Origin: Phyllobacterium sp. T1293
GTDB lineage: Bacteria; Pseudomonadota; Alphaproteobacteria; Rhizobiales; Rhizobiaceae
Length of the DNA: 64,000 nucleotides
Reading direction: 5' to 3'
Assembly (NCBI RefSeq): GCF_020731415.2
Contig: NZ_CP088273.1
Coordinates: 935,001 to 999,000, forward strand
This document shows, piece by piece, positions 5,853 to 47,519 of the stretch. The notes beneath the pieces are model-generated. The model did no database searches. It was not told where the DNA came from and was given only the letters and a program-made list of their open reading frames with translations. Made by a program: the position numbers and the translations under genes. Within the stretch, counting starts at the first letter, position 1, and the number at the start of each line of letters is the position of its first letter.

Positions 5853-5870
5853 TGGCTCCCCGGGCCGGAT
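5853..5870. other. attL core (copy of tRNA-Asn 3' end)
   Basis: TGGCTCCCCGGGCCGGAT is identical to 47445-47462. To the left lies the old tRNA-Asn terminator, to the right the integrase region. The sequence diverges immediately after the repeat (ACAAG here, TCGAA in the intact tRNA). Confidence 0.92.
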
Positions 5871-6007: not shown

Positions 6008-7180
6008 ATGGCACGCAATCTTCTCACGGCCCTTTCAATAAAGAATAGTTCGGCCGCGAAGCTCCGGGATGGGGACGGCTTGTGGCTGCATCGAAGTAAA
6101 GCTGGCGGGCAATATTGGGTCTTCATTTACATTCGTGATGGCAAACGCCGCGAGATGGGCCTGGGGTCATTCGGTTCCGGCACGGGAAGCGTGACGTTAA
6201 TTGCCGCAAGAGCCAAGGCCGAAGAGATTCGAATGATTCTTGGGAAGGGTGGCGATCCGTTTCTAGAGATGGAAGAACGTAAAGCCCGAATCAAGGTAGC
6301 GGATTTTGGAGAAATTGCCGACGCGTATATCGAAACGATGAAATCCCGATGGAAGGGCGCCAAGACCGAAGCTGGCTGGAAATTGTCGCTTGGTACGTAC
6401 GCAAAAGATATTCGGAAGCTGCCCGTGGACAGGGTTAGTACCGCCGATGTCCTAAAGTGTATCGAGCCAATCTGGCACACAAAAGCGGAGACGGCAGGCA
6501 AGGTTCGCGAGCGGATAAAAATGGTTCTCGACCATGCGAAGGTCAAAGGTCTGCGTACCGGTGACAATCCGGCGCAGTGGTCTGGGCATCTTGATCACAT
6601 GTTGCCATCTCCTGAGAAACTGCAGCGCGGTCACCATAAATCAATGCCATACACTGAATTGCCCGCCTTTATGGAAAGGCTGCGAGCCTCAGAGGGAACC
6701 GGCGCTCGAGCTTTAGAGTTCACGATTTTGACAGCGGTCCGCAGCGGCGAGGCGCGAGGCGCGATTTGGCCCGAAATCGATCTGAAGAAGAAGATTTGGA
6801 CTATTCCCTCAAATCGTATGAAGAGTGACAAACAACATCGCGTTCCTCTTTCAGATCGAGCGGTACAAATAGTCGAAGACATGATGGCAGTGTCTATTTC
6901 GAATTATGTCTTCCCAGGTGCCAAGCTTAATTCGCAACTCTCAGACATGACGCTTGCGAAGGCTGTAAAGACAGCAAAAGCAGATGTGACGGTTCATGGT
7001 TTTCGCAGCTCATTCCGGGATTGGGTTGCGGAATCTACTAATTTTCAATCAGAAGTCGCTGAAGCTGCCCTTGCGCACGTGACTGGTGACGCGGTCGAGC
7101 GGGCCTATCGCCGCGGCGATGTGTTGGCAAAGAGGCGAGAAATGATGAGCGCGTGGTCAAAATATCTGACTAAGAAGTAA
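6008..7180 (+). CDS. int: tyrosine integrase, P4/DUF4102 type
   Basis: A 390-residue site-specific recombinase that inserts and excises the prophage at tRNA-Asn. The N-terminal DUF4102 arm-binding domain is seen at about residues 1-85 (AAKLRDGDGLWLHRSKAG...W). The SAM-like core-binding domain follows, and the catalytic domain has the Arg in TAVRSGEARG (about 243), HGFRSSFRDW (His and Arg, about 329-332), LAHVTG (His, about 356) and the nucleophile Tyr in ERAYRR (about 367). It ends with KRREMMSAWSKYL as typical for P4-type enzymes. ATG 6008 follows AGGA directly. It sits beside attL, reads inward, and no excisionase is directly adjacent; the AlpA-like proteins at 7427 or 45379 may serve. Confidence 0.95.
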   Translation: MARNLLTALSIKNSSAAKLRDGDGLWLHRSKAGGQYWVFIYIRDGKRREMGLGSFGSGTGSVTLIAARAKAEEIRMILGKGGDPFLEMEERKARIKVADFGEIADAYIETMKSRWKGAKTEAGWKLSLGTYAKDIRKLPVDRVSTADVLKCIEPIWHTKAETAGKVRERIKMVLDHAKVKGLRTGDNPAQWSGHLDHMLPSPEKLQRGHHKSMPYTELPAFMERLRASEGTGARALEFTILTAVRSGEARGAIWPEIDLKKKIWTIPSNRMKSDKQHRVPLSDRAVQIVEDMMAVSISNYVFPGAKLNSQLSDMTLAKAVKTAKADVTVHGFRSSFRDWVAESTNFQSEVAEAALAHVTGDAVERAYRRGDVLAKRREMMSAWSKYLTKK

Positions 7181-14877: not shown

Positions 14878-14954
14878 TGCGGAGTAGAGAAGCAGCTATC
14901 TCGCCTGGCTCATAATCAGGAGAACATCGGTGCAAGTCCGATCTGCCGCAACCA
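14878..14954 (+). tRNA. tRNA-Met(CAT): tRNA with CAT anticodon (Met, or Ile if modified)
   Basis: A 77-base cloverleaf with encoded CCA. Anticodon arm CCTGG-CTCATAA-TCAGG gives anticodon CAT; T arm ATCGG-TGCAAGT-CCGAT; acceptor TGCGGAG with TGCCGCA has one mismatch and one wobble. Elongator Met, initiator or lysidine-modified Ile cannot be told apart here. It is the only ordinary member of the three-element cluster and lies 13 bases before the HNH gene. Confidence 0.85.
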
Positions 14955-36728: not shown

Positions 36729-37211
36729 ATGAACCTGACGCTCGGCTACACGCCGTTGCTGGTGGAGTCGTGCCGTAAGCATGGCCTGCTTCGCAACCAA
36801 GCTGCGTATGTTCTTGCCACGGCTTATCATGAGACGGCGCATACGATGCTGCCAGTGCGTGAGAAGGGCGGCGAGTCATACCTGCGCAAGAAGAAATACT
36901 GGCCGTATGTGGGTATGGGCTTTGTCCAGGTCACATGGCTAACCAACTATAAGCGTGCATCGAAAGAATTGGGTGTCGACTTTGTTGCTGATCCAAAGCT
37001 CCTGCTCAATCCAGAATACTCGGCCGAGATTGCCGTTGTTGGCATGAAGGAAGGCTGGTTCACCGGCAAGCGCCTTGCGGATTACATCACGCTTCAGAAG
37101 TCAGACTTTAGGCAAGCTCGCCGTATTATCAACATCTTGGATTGCGCCGATCTGATCGCCGGTTACGCACTAGTCTATGACGGGCTGCTAAAGGCTGCTG
37201 GTTATGACTGA
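36729..37211 (+). CDS. endolysin, GH19 (chitinase-like) muramidase
   Basis: 160 residues without signal peptide. AAYVLATAYHETAHTMLPV carries the catalytic Glu, REKGGESYLRKKKY a second acidic site, and YVGMGFVQVTWLTNYKRAS the substrate-groove segment of GH19-type phage lysozymes. It cuts peptidoglycan once the holin opens the inner membrane. AAGGA precedes ATG 36729. Its stop overlaps the holin-like start. Confidence 0.88.
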   Translation: MNLTLGYTPLLVESCRKHGLLRNQAAYVLATAYHETAHTMLPVREKGGESYLRKKKYWPYVGMGFVQVTWLTNYKRASKELGVDFVADPKLLLNPEYSAEIAVVGMKEGWFTGKRLADYITLQKSDFRQARRIINILDCADLIAGYALVYDGLLKAAGYD

Positions 37212-38565: not shown

Positions 38566-38654
38566 GAATGACGTGTTTATTTAATATATTAAGAGTAGTA
38601 TGAGTCTCAAAAAATCAGCGAATACGACTCGCACTAAATAATTGGAGAGTAAAA

Positions 38655-39116
38655 ATGCCAGTAAGAGATGTAGCAGAATATATTCTGAGGCGGAATGGCG
38701 AAATGACGGCCATGAAGCTGCAAAAGCTCGTCTACTACGCGCAGGCATGGTCGCTAGTTTGGGACGAGCGTCCGCTATTTGATGAAAAAATTGAAGCGTG
38801 GGCGAATGGACCAGTATGCCGCTCGTTGTATTCGGCTCACCACCGTCAATTCAGTGTTGGGCCAAATCAAATTAAGACGGGTGAATTGGATTTAGACGAG
38901 CGGGCTACGAATACGGTCCATGCTGTCCTGAGTTTCTACGGAGACAAATCCGCGCAATGGCTGAGTGATCTTACCCATCTCGAGACTCCGTGGGTGCGGG
39001 CGCGTATGCGCGCTGACGTTCAAGACGGCACTCCTTCAGATGAGGAAATTCTACTTTCGGATATGCATGAATATTACTCGGGTCTTGTTAATGTGGAAAA
39101 CAATGAGCAAGCATGA
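38655..39116 (+). CDS. Panacea-domain antitoxin (DUF4065/SocA-like)
   Basis: 153 residues with the full Panacea signature: EMTAMKLQKLVYYAQAWSL at residues 16-34, then PLFDEKIEAWANGPVCRSLY at about 41-60 and an ATNTVHAVLSFYGDKSAQWL helix later. Panacea proteins are antitoxins paired with very diverse toxins; the Caulobacter SocA is one that delivers its toxin to ClpXP. GGAG precedes ATG 38655 and the next gene overlaps its stop as ATGA. The pair starts a separate unit 90 bases after the lysis cassette. Confidence 0.92.
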   Translation: MPVRDVAEYILRRNGEMTAMKLQKLVYYAQAWSLVWDERPLFDEKIEAWANGPVCRSLYSAHHRQFSVGPNQIKTGELDLDERATNTVHAVLSFYGDKSAQWLSDLTHLETPWVRARMRADVQDGTPSDEEILLSDMHEYYSGLVNVENNEQA

Positions 39117-39676
39117 ACCGGAAAAACGCTCGTATTGAACGGCAACTGGCTAAGCAGCTGGCGCATATTCAGAAAAAAGCTCGGACAGTTGCCCAGTTTT
39201 CCGAAGAGAAAACGCCACGAGTCATTGACGCTCCCCAAATTAACAAAAACCCTCGCACGCTTGCAGATCCAGTCAGTATCATGGGCATGCAAATGCAGTA
39301 TCAAGTTATTACGCATGCAGATCAAGAAGGTGCTTGGAGCTGGGGCCAAGAAAGGAATTGGTGTTCACCTGCGCACAATGCAGAAAATGCCTGTGAAATT
39401 CGCTCAACAATGATTTTTATGTCGGGACTGTATTGGCACGAAATATTGGCGCAGAGGACTGGCAGCGGACATAAGAGACACAAAAAGAATCACTCCCAAG
39501 CGTGGGACTCACTGTGCGCCGAAGCCCAAGAGAGATGGCTTGAGATTGGGCGCGGCGAAGATGAGCTTTTTAGGTTTCGCACGGGCGGAAAGGGCAGAAT
39601 TTGGGGCTTTCGAGATGGCCACATATTCAATGTCGTTTGGTGGGATGCGGAACATCAAATATACCCGGTTGATTAA
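39113..39676 (+). CDS. putative toxin partner of the Panacea antitoxin
   Basis: 187 residues, basic, translated in ATGA overlap with the Panacea gene. The first 45 residues are a charged helix; a middle part has two His/Trp-rich stretches (ADQEGAWSWGQERNW, SGLYWHEILAQRTG); the end is FRFRTGGKGRIWGFRDGHIF and a short strand with VVWWDAEHQIYPVD. This ending, R-I-W-G-F-x-x-G ... W-W-D-x-x-H-x-[IV]-Y-P, is like the last strands of RelE/ParE-type small toxins. The toxic activity is unknown; no toxin family is certain. Two terminators follow. Confidence 0.72.
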   Translation: MNRKNARIERQLAKQLAHIQKKARTVAQFSEEKTPRVIDAPQINKNPRTLADPVSIMGMQMQYQVITHADQEGAWSWGQERNWCSPAHNAENACEIRSTMIFMSGLYWHEILAQRTGSGHKRHKKNHSQAWDSLCAEAQERWLEIGRGEDELFRFRTGGKGRIWGFRDGHIFNVVWWDAEHQIYPVD

Positions 39677-39693
39677 TCTCATACTCACCCACC

Positions 39694-39735
39694 AACCCCG
39701 CATATTCCGCAAGGTTTGTGCGGGGTTTATTTTTG
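39694..39735 (+). terminator. terminator 1 after the toxin-antitoxin pair
   Basis: AACCCCGCA and TGCGGGGTT pair around a 16-base loop, followed by TATTTTTG. Confidence 0.75.
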
Positions 39736-39736
39736 T

Positions 39737-39776
39737 ACCCCCGCTGGCTGAAAGGCTGGCGGGGTCTTTTTTCTTT
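39737..39776 (+). terminator. terminator 2 after the toxin-antitoxin pair
   Basis: CCCCGCTGGC and GCTGGCGGGG pair imperfectly around TGAAAG, followed by TCTTTTTTCTTTC. The two hairpins in tandem isolate the structural and toxin genes from the cargo beyond. Confidence 0.8.
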
Positions 39777-39810
39777 CTGGAACCGAATCCACTCATCGCC
39801 GTTTCAGGCC

Positions 39811-40062
39811 ATGCAACGACACTCATTTGAATCTGTGACCATCGAAACCAAGAAGGTCGGCCTTTACCGGAACATCACGTCGGTTGAGGAAGCCGCAGAG
39901 TTTCTTGTTTATGATTGGCCGATTGAGAAGGGACCGTTGCAATTGCAGGCCCGGATTGATTGTCTCGATGCCATGGAGAATGCTCTGGATGCTGAGCAGG
40001 CGAGAGCGTCATTCATCGCTGCGGTGAAAGAGGCGGGCATATTCGTCCGGGAAGGGCGTTAG
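39811..40062 (+). CDS. DUF982 family protein in the prophage
   Basis: 83 residues with the DUF982 layout: FESVTIETKKVGLYRNITSV, EEAAEFLVYDWP, QARIDCLDAMENAL and ARASFIAAVKEAGIFV. It parallels the host gene at 4543 (same order of motifs, different residues). DUF982 genes are host-type genes in Rhizobiales, so this one was probably picked up by the phage. No strong ribosome site is seen; it may be read from a promoter between the terminators and the ATG. Confidence 0.8.
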   Translation: MQRHSFESVTIETKKVGLYRNITSVEEAAEFLVYDWPIEKGPLQLQARIDCLDAMENALDAEQARASFIAAVKEAGIFVREGR

Positions 40063-40065
40063 GTT

Positions 40066-40269
40066 TTAAACCCAGCCCAGCCGTGCACGGTCCCCGCAAT
40101 ACCCCCAGTTCCATAGCGCTTGCTGAATCAGAACGGGAAACCTCATTGCGGCCTTCCTCTGCTCAGGTGCGAAGCTGCCCCGATCAATCAATCCATCCTC
40201 AAGCGCCATCTGGCAGTCATTGAAGCGGTCAGAATAATTCCCCTTGGCCCTTGGAGCCTTTATTTTCAT
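40066..40269 (-). CDS. small protein, 67 residues, Rhizobiales type
   Basis: Contains NYSDRFNDCQMALEDGLID and a helix QRKAAMRFPVLIQQALWNWG. The DRF-x-DCQ-x-AL motif recurs in small rhizobial proteins of unknown role. GGGAG precedes ATG 40269 by eight bases. Converges with the DUF982 gene, three bases apart. Confidence 0.6.
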   Translation of the reverse strand: MKIKAPRAKGNYSDRFNDCQMALEDGLIDRGSFAPEQRKAAMRFPVLIQQALWNWGYCGDRARLGWV

Positions 40270-40290
40270 TGATATGCTCCCGCCTGCGGA

Positions 40291-40716
40291 CTATGCCAGA
40301 AACTTGACAAACACGAGCTCCGGATCGTTATCGTCCAGGTTATGAATATACCCGCTCGGGCTAAAGTTAGCTTGAGAGAGAAGCCTCTGCATTACCTGAT
40401 TTGAGAGGTTTGTTGTTGCCCAAATTTTCGGTGTTGTGCAGATATCTATAAAGTAGCACAGCAGGGCAGCGCCGACGCCCTTCTTTCGGAATGCCGTCCC
40501 AACCATGATCATTTCAATCATGCCTGAGCGAAAGAAATGGTAGTTGAAAACACCGTAGGCGGCGATTTCGTTATTATGACAAGCCACAAAACATTCGTTC
40601 GCGTCGATCCATTGTTTTATTTCTTTGGTACGCTCTGAATAGGTGGGGGTGACGGTATCAAGAGACGTCAGAACATCCAGATCGTTCAACGCGGCCAGCC
40701 GCATTTCAATTTTCAT
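40291..40716 (-). CDS. GNAT acetyltransferase, cargo gene
   Basis: 141 residues. The acetyl-CoA loop is FRKKGVGAALLCYFID (R-x-x-G-x-G-x-A) at about residues 76-91 and the strand before it IEMIMVGT is typical. It has an N-terminal strand (MRLAALNDLDVLTSLD) and a final YIHNLDDNDPELVFV. Substrate unknown; prophage-carried GNATs may act on toxins, tRNA or small molecules. Confidence 0.85.
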   Translation of the reverse strand: MKIEMRLAALNDLDVLTSLDTVTPTYSERTKEIKQWIDANECFVACHNNEIAAYGVFNYHFFRSGMIEMIMVGTAFRKKGVGAALLCYFIDICTTPKIWATTNLSNQVMQRLLSQANFSPSGYIHNLDDNDPELVFVKFLA

Positions 40717-40933
40717 GTTTTCAGTACCAGCTGATCAACGATCAGTTTCTTGCTCTTGGTGCGTTTACTTCAATTCGAGTGTTTCATTAGCTGAAACCTG
40801 TTTCAATTTTGTTCTCAATAACCAAAGAGTCAAGTGGAGTAACAGTCCGTTTCAGGGTTGGGGCAACTCGAGTGTCTGTTGTCAGAGTAGGCGCCACCTT
40901 ATAGATTAGGACGATACTTTGGAGATTGGGTGC

Positions 40934-41371
40934 ATGGCAATCAAACGAATGGACAACGTCGGAATCGTCGTCGAAGACCTGGACGTGGCGATCGATTTCT
41001 TGCTCGAGCTCGGCCTGGAGCTCGAAGGGCGGACCACGATCGAAGGAGAATGGGCTGGCCGTGTGACTGGACTGGGCGATCAGCGTGTCGAGATTGCTAT
41101 GATGCGCACACCGGACGGCCACAGCCGGCTCGAACTCTCCCGCTTCCTCACGCCGCCTGTCGTCGCAGATCACCGCAACGCGCCAGTCAACGCCCTAGGC
41201 TATCTCCGCGTTATGTTTGCTGTCGATGATGTGGACGACACGCTTGAAAGGCTTCGTAAGCGCGGCGCGCAGCTTGTGGGCGAAGTGGTCCAGTATAAAA
41301 ACGTGTATCGACTTTGCTACATCCGTGGGCCTGAAGGACTTCTCATCGGGCTCGCCCAAGAACTCAGCTGA
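40934..41371 (+). CDS. VOC (glyoxalase-like) protein, cargo gene
   Basis: 145 residues with two half-modules: RMDNVGIVVEDLDVAIDFLLELG at the front and LRVMFAVDDVDDTLERLRKRG in the second half, ending YIRGPEGLLIGLAQEL. Metal-ligand positions (an H/E pattern) include E in VEIAMMRTPDG and the terminal E. Related proteins include lactoylglutathione lyase-like enzymes and antibiotic-binding proteins; which applies is unclear. GGAG lies nine bases before ATG 40934. High GC relative to the neighbouring cargo genes hints at a separate origin. Confidence 0.85.
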   Translation: MAIKRMDNVGIVVEDLDVAIDFLLELGLELEGRTTIEGEWAGRVTGLGDQRVEIAMMRTPDGHSRLELSRFLTPPVVADHRNAPVNALGYLRVMFAVDDVDDTLERLRKRGAQLVGEVVQYKNVYRLCYIRGPEGLLIGLAQELS

Positions 41372-41448
41372 GAGTGATACGAAGACAAATAGGAAAGAGT
41401 GATCGAGGTCAGCGAGCGCGTGAGGTTGACTTGTCACTCTGTTATCGC

Positions 41449-42141
41449 TCATTCCAATATTAATTCTTCCAGTTTGGGAGGCTCGGGTGGCAATACGATC
41501 AGTTCGTCGTCGGGCAGGGGCTTTTGAAGCCTAAGCGCCTCTTTCCTCGGAGCATTCAGCCAAATGTCGATGTCTTCCGGGGTGCGCAGGATAACCGGCA
41601 TCGCCTTGGAGTGGATAGGTTCGACGACAGCATTCGGGCGCGTTGTCAGGAAGGCGAATATCTCCGTATCAACCGGGCCTTCCTTTGCCTTGCGCACACC
41701 GCTCCATTTCGTCCAGACGCCAGCGAACCAGAAGAGGGGCTTTTCCTCGTTCAAGGCGAACCAATAGAGCGGAAGCTTGTTTGTGACGGGATCGCGGACG
41801 CTGCCATATTCTGAAAATTGGGTGACAGGCACAACACAACGGTTTTCCTCGCCCATCCAAGTCTGCCAGTGCGGTATCCATGACTTGCGGACGTTGGTCA
41901 CTCCACTGTCGACGGTTACGCCTGTTTTGGCGTTGGGCTTCAGGTGTTCGGCAGGCGTCGGCATTCCCCAGCGGAGCATCGCCAGTTCCATCTCGCCGTC
42001 TGCATCCTTGCGCGCGATCGGTGCCGGATAGTCCGGATAGATATTGTCGTCAAACTCATTTCGGTTGGTTCGGTTGCCGATCCCCTTGAAGAGATCGCGC
42101 ATTGCTTCAACGCCCATGGTGATACGGAAAAGATTGCACAT
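41449..42141 (-). CDS. SRAP-family DNA-protein crosslink sensor (YedK/HMCES-like)
   Basis: 230 residues, starting MCN with Cys2 as the residue that bonds abasic sites in single-stranded DNA. Further SRAP landmarks are VRKSWIPHW near residue 83 (N-V-R), TQFSEYG near residue 110 (active-site Glu) and EPIHSKAMPVIL near residue 175 (His). The family protects abasic sites at replication forks and forms a thiazolidine link. A phage-borne copy may guard replicating phage DNA. ATG 42141 must be the start for Cys2 to be N-terminal after Met removal. Confidence 0.92.
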   Translation of the reverse strand: MCNLFRITMGVEAMRDLFKGIGNRTNRNEFDDNIYPDYPAPIARKDADGEMELAMLRWGMPTPAEHLKPNAKTGVTVDSGVTNVRKSWIPHWQTWMGEENRCVVPVTQFSEYGSVRDPVTNKLPLYWFALNEEKPLFWFAGVWTKWSGVRKAKEGPVDTEIFAFLTTRPNAVVEPIHSKAMPVILRTPEDIDIWLNAPRKEALRLQKPLPDDELIVLPPEPPKLEELILE

Positions 42142-47444: not shown

Positions 47445-47462
47445 TGGCTCCCCGGGCCGGAT
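47445..47462. other. attR core (within tRNA-Asn)
   Basis: TGGCTCCCCGGGCCGGAT, identical to 5853-5870. The intact tRNA continues to the right. Confidence 0.92.
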
Positions 47463-47519
47463 TCGAACCAGCGACCAACCGGTTAACAGCCGGTTGCTCT
47501 ACCACTGAGCTACCGGGGA
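47445..47519 (-). tRNA. tRNA-Asn(GTT): tRNA-Asn(GTT), prophage attachment target
   Basis: 75 bases with encoded CCA. Anticodon arm CCGGC-TGTTAAC-CGGTT reads GTT; T arm CTGG-TTCGAAT-CC is standard. Its 3' 18 bases are the attR core, so its end is phage-derived but restores the gene. Confidence 0.96.

Follow-up and report, generated by a model that had tools for sequence, protein, structure and literature searches.

The described systems closest to the locus reported here are the PanAT systems, toxin-antitoxin pairs neutralized through the Panacea domain (Kurata et al. 2022, PMC8832971). Stand-alone Panacea neutralizes toxins directly, and antitoxins with extra domains neutralize through those domains (PMC10440598). 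In MqsR-PanA of Burkholderia fungorum the toxin is called a RelE homologue in the literature and the antitoxin contains Panacea, so that the combination of a RelE-type toxin with Panacea is already known (PMC10440598). AarT (NetFlax D3), a toxin of the mRNA-interferase fold that blocks translation, is encoded with an AAA ATPase (D29), and NetFlax itself begins at Panacea and hops from an antitoxin to its toxin and on to a further antitoxin (Ernits et al. 2023, PMC10440598). Here we describe panA-panT, a gene pair in a 64,000-nucleotide (nt) stretch of Phyllobacterium sp. T1293 (the window; positions count from its first letter), for which we computed the gene layout, the conserved pairing, the superfamily and the predicted fold. 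The pair is probably a prophage type II toxin-antitoxin module, made up of a Panacea antitoxin and a RelE-fold toxin that most likely stops translation by RNA cleavage.

The gene pair and the predicted fold of PanT

The genes panA (38655-39116, forward strand, 153 residues) and panT (39113-39676, forward strand, 187 residues) share four bases, ATGA, between the stop codon of the first and the start codon of the second, exactly as an earlier sequence-only reading had it. A likely ribosome-binding site of panA, GGAG, is found at 38644-38647, and panT would probably be translated by coupling at the overlap. That reading had also assigned the upstream gene to Panacea (DUF4065), and PanA passes the threshold of Pfam SocA_Panacea (PF13274) with an E-value of 8.8e-16, scoring 59.3 bits where 25.7 are required. 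Against the NCBIfam SocA equivalog (NF047745) it scores 51.7 bits, below the cut-off of 190; by these profile scores PanA is a Panacea-type protein, SocA proper being excluded. Panacea is its sole confident Pfam domain and, since no further domain is visible to Pfam, PanA, the predicted antitoxin, would be expected to neutralize directly.

PanT, the predicted toxin, is assigned to no Pfam family (best match E 0.049), and the RelE/ParE-type families of Pfam give no match to it at E up to 1 and none to the 10 remote relatives scanned. Adenine glycosylase, FCH and the other weak Pfam matches (E at least 0.049) were set aside as unsupported, as were phmmer matches to PDB chains (E at least 0.049). 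Three weak library matches all fall at the C-terminal end, to NCBIfam MAG6450 (NF046006; 25.9 bits, below the cut-off of 40), phrog_8366 (1.7e-7) and PADLOC NsnC (3.7e-5 over 37 residues). We rejected NsnC as an identity for PanT, the match being weak and lying in the same stretch as the others; a literature text search for the name returned no relevant title among the matches listed.

In the AlphaFold model (model 2), the structural matches cover residues 59-187 (39287-39673, forward strand) and only these, and over this core the predicted fold is matched by RelE, HigB, YoeB and YafQ toxins. Residues 1-58 (39113-39286, forward strand) lie outside the core and comprise a basic N-terminal helix (3-29) and a low-confidence linker. 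PanT is thus RelE-like by predicted fold while standing outside the RelE/ParE-type sequence families of Pfam. The likeness to RelE/ParE toxins that had been noticed at the C-terminal end extends, in the model, to a whole RelE-like fold, and the long front part, whose His/Trp-rich stretches the first reading could not place, turns out to be mostly RelE-like domain (59-150).

The C-terminal pattern R-I-W-G-F ... W-W-D-x-x-H-x-I-Y-P noted previously is present and conserved. R162, G165, D178 and H181 do not vary across an alignment of 104 sequences that includes the window's; in a wider alignment of 120, R162 alone is invariant, G165, D178 and H181 are each retained in at least 90%, and F172 is also nearly invariant. 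In RelE-type enzymes, conserved Arg, Asp and His residues near the last strands cut RNA. By analogy, PanT would most likely use its RelE-like core to bind the ribosome or RNA, and would cut mRNA (or tRNA) with R162, D178 and H181 near its last two strands, whereupon translation would stop; PanA would keep PanT inactive by direct binding until some cue or loss of the prophage. A genuine Panacea pair could instead employ a RelE-fold toxin with a target other than RNA, e.g. DNA gyrase as for ParE, and indeed ParE2, ParE1 and PrpT chains are also among the structural matches of PanT and ParE-like domains are named among predicted Panacea partners (PMC8832971). We consider such a target unlikely, as invariance of R162, D178 and H181 in the alignment of 104 (near invariance in that of 120) is expected of an enzyme and AarT, which is probably distantly related, acts by blocking translation (PMC10440598).

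Conserved pairing and a wider superfamily of predicted toxins

Homologues were sought with PanT alone as the query. A protein search returned 36 proteins, including the window's own, and a profile built on 22 diverse members returned 97, of which three short fragments (P0037, P0038 and P0077) were excluded from alignments A4 and A5. The 63 loci (L001-L063) come from genomes (14), viral contigs (4), phages and plasmids, and sampled genomes; PanT-type loci occur in 5 of 297 sampled genomes of the family, 13 of 385 of the class and 19 of 398 of the phylum, the window's genome being counted each time. Removal of seven duplicates (L022, L023, L026, L038, L040, L046 and L063), the window itself (L021), and L014 and L056, where a Panacea open reading frame (ORF) is present and no toxin ORF exceeds the threshold, left 53. 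The partner sequences of two same-family duplicates, L022 and L023, match those of L001 (a Rhizobiales contig) and L019 (a Rhizobium plasmid).

A Panacea ORF lies directly upstream on the same strand in 49 of the 53 distinct loci, overlapping the partner or within 12 nt of it except in L037 (165 nt). The profile behind these calls was derived from the Panacea proteins flanking the partner in the first loci, and Pfam agreed in all seven loci given to it. In three of the remaining loci an AAA ATPase stands upstream (Pfam identifies AAA_21 in L053 and L055; in L059 the record annotation names it), and in the fourth, L054, which we retained in the counts as a miss, a small gene. In L054 (L054:1480-2077) the partner is a weak relative ending in PDHDAAYGKK, and the small gene before it, which has no Pfam match, is perhaps a further antitoxin class. 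Two loci are decayed copies, L037 with Panacea split into two ORFs and L055 with two stops in its AAA-type toxin.

In the reverse control, Panacea was present in 21 of 101 family genomes, and profiles A3 and A5 detected a PanT-type partner at 1 of the 30 Panacea places examined (32 listed), that of the window. Several of the other places have, by eye, a hydrophobic, membrane-type partner. At L069, L072, L078 and L090, Panacea-like genes are followed by proteins of 119-125 residues that resemble each other by eye; a second Panacea gene of the window's genome (G000:C1:1835321-1835656, L065) is followed by a different, unplaced ORF. On the conserved pairing and this control we rejected a chance ORF or spurious neighbour. 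Distances among PanA and PanT proteins are correlated (r = 0.73 for 47 pairs including the window, against a permutation maximum of 0.24; the truncated loci L011, L034 and L037 were excluded), a correlation that may stem from shared descent.

Comparison of alignments places these proteins in a wider context. The window's family (A1) aligns with MAG6450-type proteins (A7) at 98.4% hhalign probability over 97 columns, and the AAA-linked branch (A6) aligns with A7 at 97.6% (107 columns), with alignment A2 at 97.0% (117 columns) and with A1 at 87.1% (35 columns). In controls, 60 column-shuffles per comparison gave at most 9.8%, reversed alignments at most 0.9% and comparisons with Panacea at most 1%. 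The A7 label derives from one member, P0052, which NCBI names MAG6450 family, and none of the 10 relatives scanned reaches the 40-bit MAG6450 cut-off (best 39.9). Profile searches of PDB sequences gave nothing for A5 and two unrelated chains for A7, RelE toxins being absent from the matches. On alignment evidence PanT is remotely related to MAG6450-type proteins, and its description as unclassified has to be qualified accordingly.

The AAA-linked branch has the R-x-x-G...D-x-x-H end in common with the window's family. A search of viral contigs with A6 gave 18 loci, 14 with an AAA gene upstream (called with a profile for which L053, L055 and L059 supplied the sequences), three in which the contig starts at the toxin and one with Panacea (L113); A7 gave 13, 12 with Panacea and one with AAA (L123, on the same contig as L096). 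The AAA-linked loci therefore number 17, i.e. L053, L055, L059 and the 14 viral loci, which may include near-identical copies, and a search of 388 genomes for further copies found just the two already known. One AAA-linked locus, on the Shewanella baltica plasmid pSBP2_mcr4 (L059:2740-4477), is an AAA ATPase-toxin pair flanked by integrase genes and adjoined by a retron gene of the Ec67 type. We infer that the branch is AarT (NetFlax D3). Hopping outward from Panacea leads one to expect a toxin that bridges Panacea and D29, and the bridge seen here fits. There is about an even chance that MAG6450-type proteins, AarT-type proteins and the window's alphaproteobacterial family are one RelE-fold toxin superfamily that switched antitoxin class between stand-alone Panacea and AAA ATPase while keeping a close or overlapping two-gene layout; the basic N-terminal helix of the window's branch may dock Panacea or the ribosome.

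Several points weigh against a translation-blocking toxin held in check by Panacea. The predicted fold does not separate an RNase from a gyrase inhibitor, 8 of the 25 PanTs assayed were harmless in E. coli (PMC8832971), and the toxicity of PanT and its rescue by PanA are both things that we infer. The AAA branch also breaks the rule of constant Panacea association at the level of the superfamily; among near relatives the rule holds. The sequence-only reading would have been undermined by homologues commonly occurring apart from Panacea; among near relatives Panacea is upstream wherever the partner is readable, and one remote branch has the AAA ATPase in its place. As its toxicity is a prediction, PanT might be a harmless cofactor or regulator of Panacea, which we regard as very improbable given its RelE-like predicted fold, the antitoxin-first overlapping layout and the fact that its relatives are found with Panacea in some loci and an AAA ATPase in others.

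The prophage setting

The pair lies in an integrated element of 41.6 kb (5853-47462) bounded by exact copies of an 18-bp repeat, the left at 5853-5870 (likely attL) and the right at 47445-47462 (likely attR), at the 3' end of a tRNA-Asn gene (47445-47519, reverse strand). A tyrosine-type integrase is encoded inside the element at 6008-7180, and terminase, portal, protease, capsid, tape-measure and tail-fibre genes are found upstream of panA-panT. The position after a lysis cassette and before two terminators, read earlier from the sequence, was borne out. An endolysin-like gene (36729-37211, forward strand; phrog_181, 3.3e-28) and spanin-like genes with weak matches (LysC in Pfam, 7e-4; an Rz-like spanin in the PHROG library, 0.03) precede the pair, and a hairpin scan finds terminator-like hairpins 3' of it at 39704-39726 and, longer, at 39739-39764 (both forward strand). 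In this 2.1-kb region, terminator-like sites on both strands number 7 against 2.4 expected. Hairpins and repeat copies support panA-panT as a self-contained module inside the prophage, as first proposed. Past the pair, 39718-42141 holds host-type cargo within the element by Pfam (DUF982, GNAT acetyltransferase, glyoxalase-like and SRAP genes), and a tRNA-Met gene (14878-14954) lies within the prophage ahead of the terminase genes.

By analogy, the module may serve prophage maintenance or anti-phage defence. In an abortive-infection arrangement, Panacea would sense an infecting phage and free the toxin, maintenance being secondary; this concerns the benefit and is compatible with a translation-blocking toxin-antitoxin pair. 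It is a tenable but somewhat doubtful proposal. A sensor role for Panacea has been proposed by Ernits et al., and RosmerTA, a non-Panacea pair of Gordonia phage Kita, protects against phages (PMC10440598); members of the PanT superfamily are present in phage records and viral contigs, and one AAA-type pair adjoins a retron gene on a plasmid. On the other side, the published phage screen in E. coli returned no hit for AarT-AAA (PMC10440598), and the PADLOC match of PanT is weak and spans 37 residues. Of 5426 E. coli genomes, 82 have matches to the Panacea-toxin pair that Escherichia phage E212 carries (L063:3444-4321), and in 34 of these the match covers 80% or more of the pair.

Comparison with known systems

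The pairing of Panacea with diverse toxins is already known, and the advance here is a modest one, namely the predicted fold, the superfamily and the antitoxin swap. A widespread family labelled hypothetical or 'MAG6450 family' in databases is thereby given a predicted fold and a likely action. One toxin superfamily with two unrelated neutralizers, Panacea or an AAA ATPase, makes it possible to test cleanly by what means a promiscuous antitoxin recognizes its toxin, and what Panacea senses.

The window pair resembles PanAT systems in having a Panacea protein directly upstream, closely spaced genes and an occurrence in many species and in prophages (PMC8832971). It differs in its toxin, as none of the 10 pairs in Table 1 of that paper has a toxin described as RelE-like, a comparison made by description and apart from the paper's 88 predicted clusters. 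With MqsR-PanA it shares a RelE-type toxin and a Panacea-containing antitoxin, yet in that system Panacea is fused to MqsA zinc-binding and helix-turn-helix domains, of which the zinc-binding domain neutralizes (PMC10440598), whereas PanA is Panacea alone and PanT has no MqsR match in Pfam. RelE, HigB, YoeB and YafQ have the fold predicted for PanT over 59-187 but differ by the absence of any Pfam sequence match in PanT, by their antitoxins and by the N-terminal extension on PanT. In AarT-AAA the antitoxin is the AAA protein, in the window Panacea. The MAG6450 family (NF046006; Mycoplasma agalactiae MAG6450) has the C-terminal half in common with PanT, which carries the basic N-terminal helix in addition. 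MAG6440 appears under the name 'putative prophage protein ps3' (PMC3179502), which a Panacea gene in a Pseudomonas phage record also bears, and MAG6450-type loci adjoin Panacea just as PanT of the window does.
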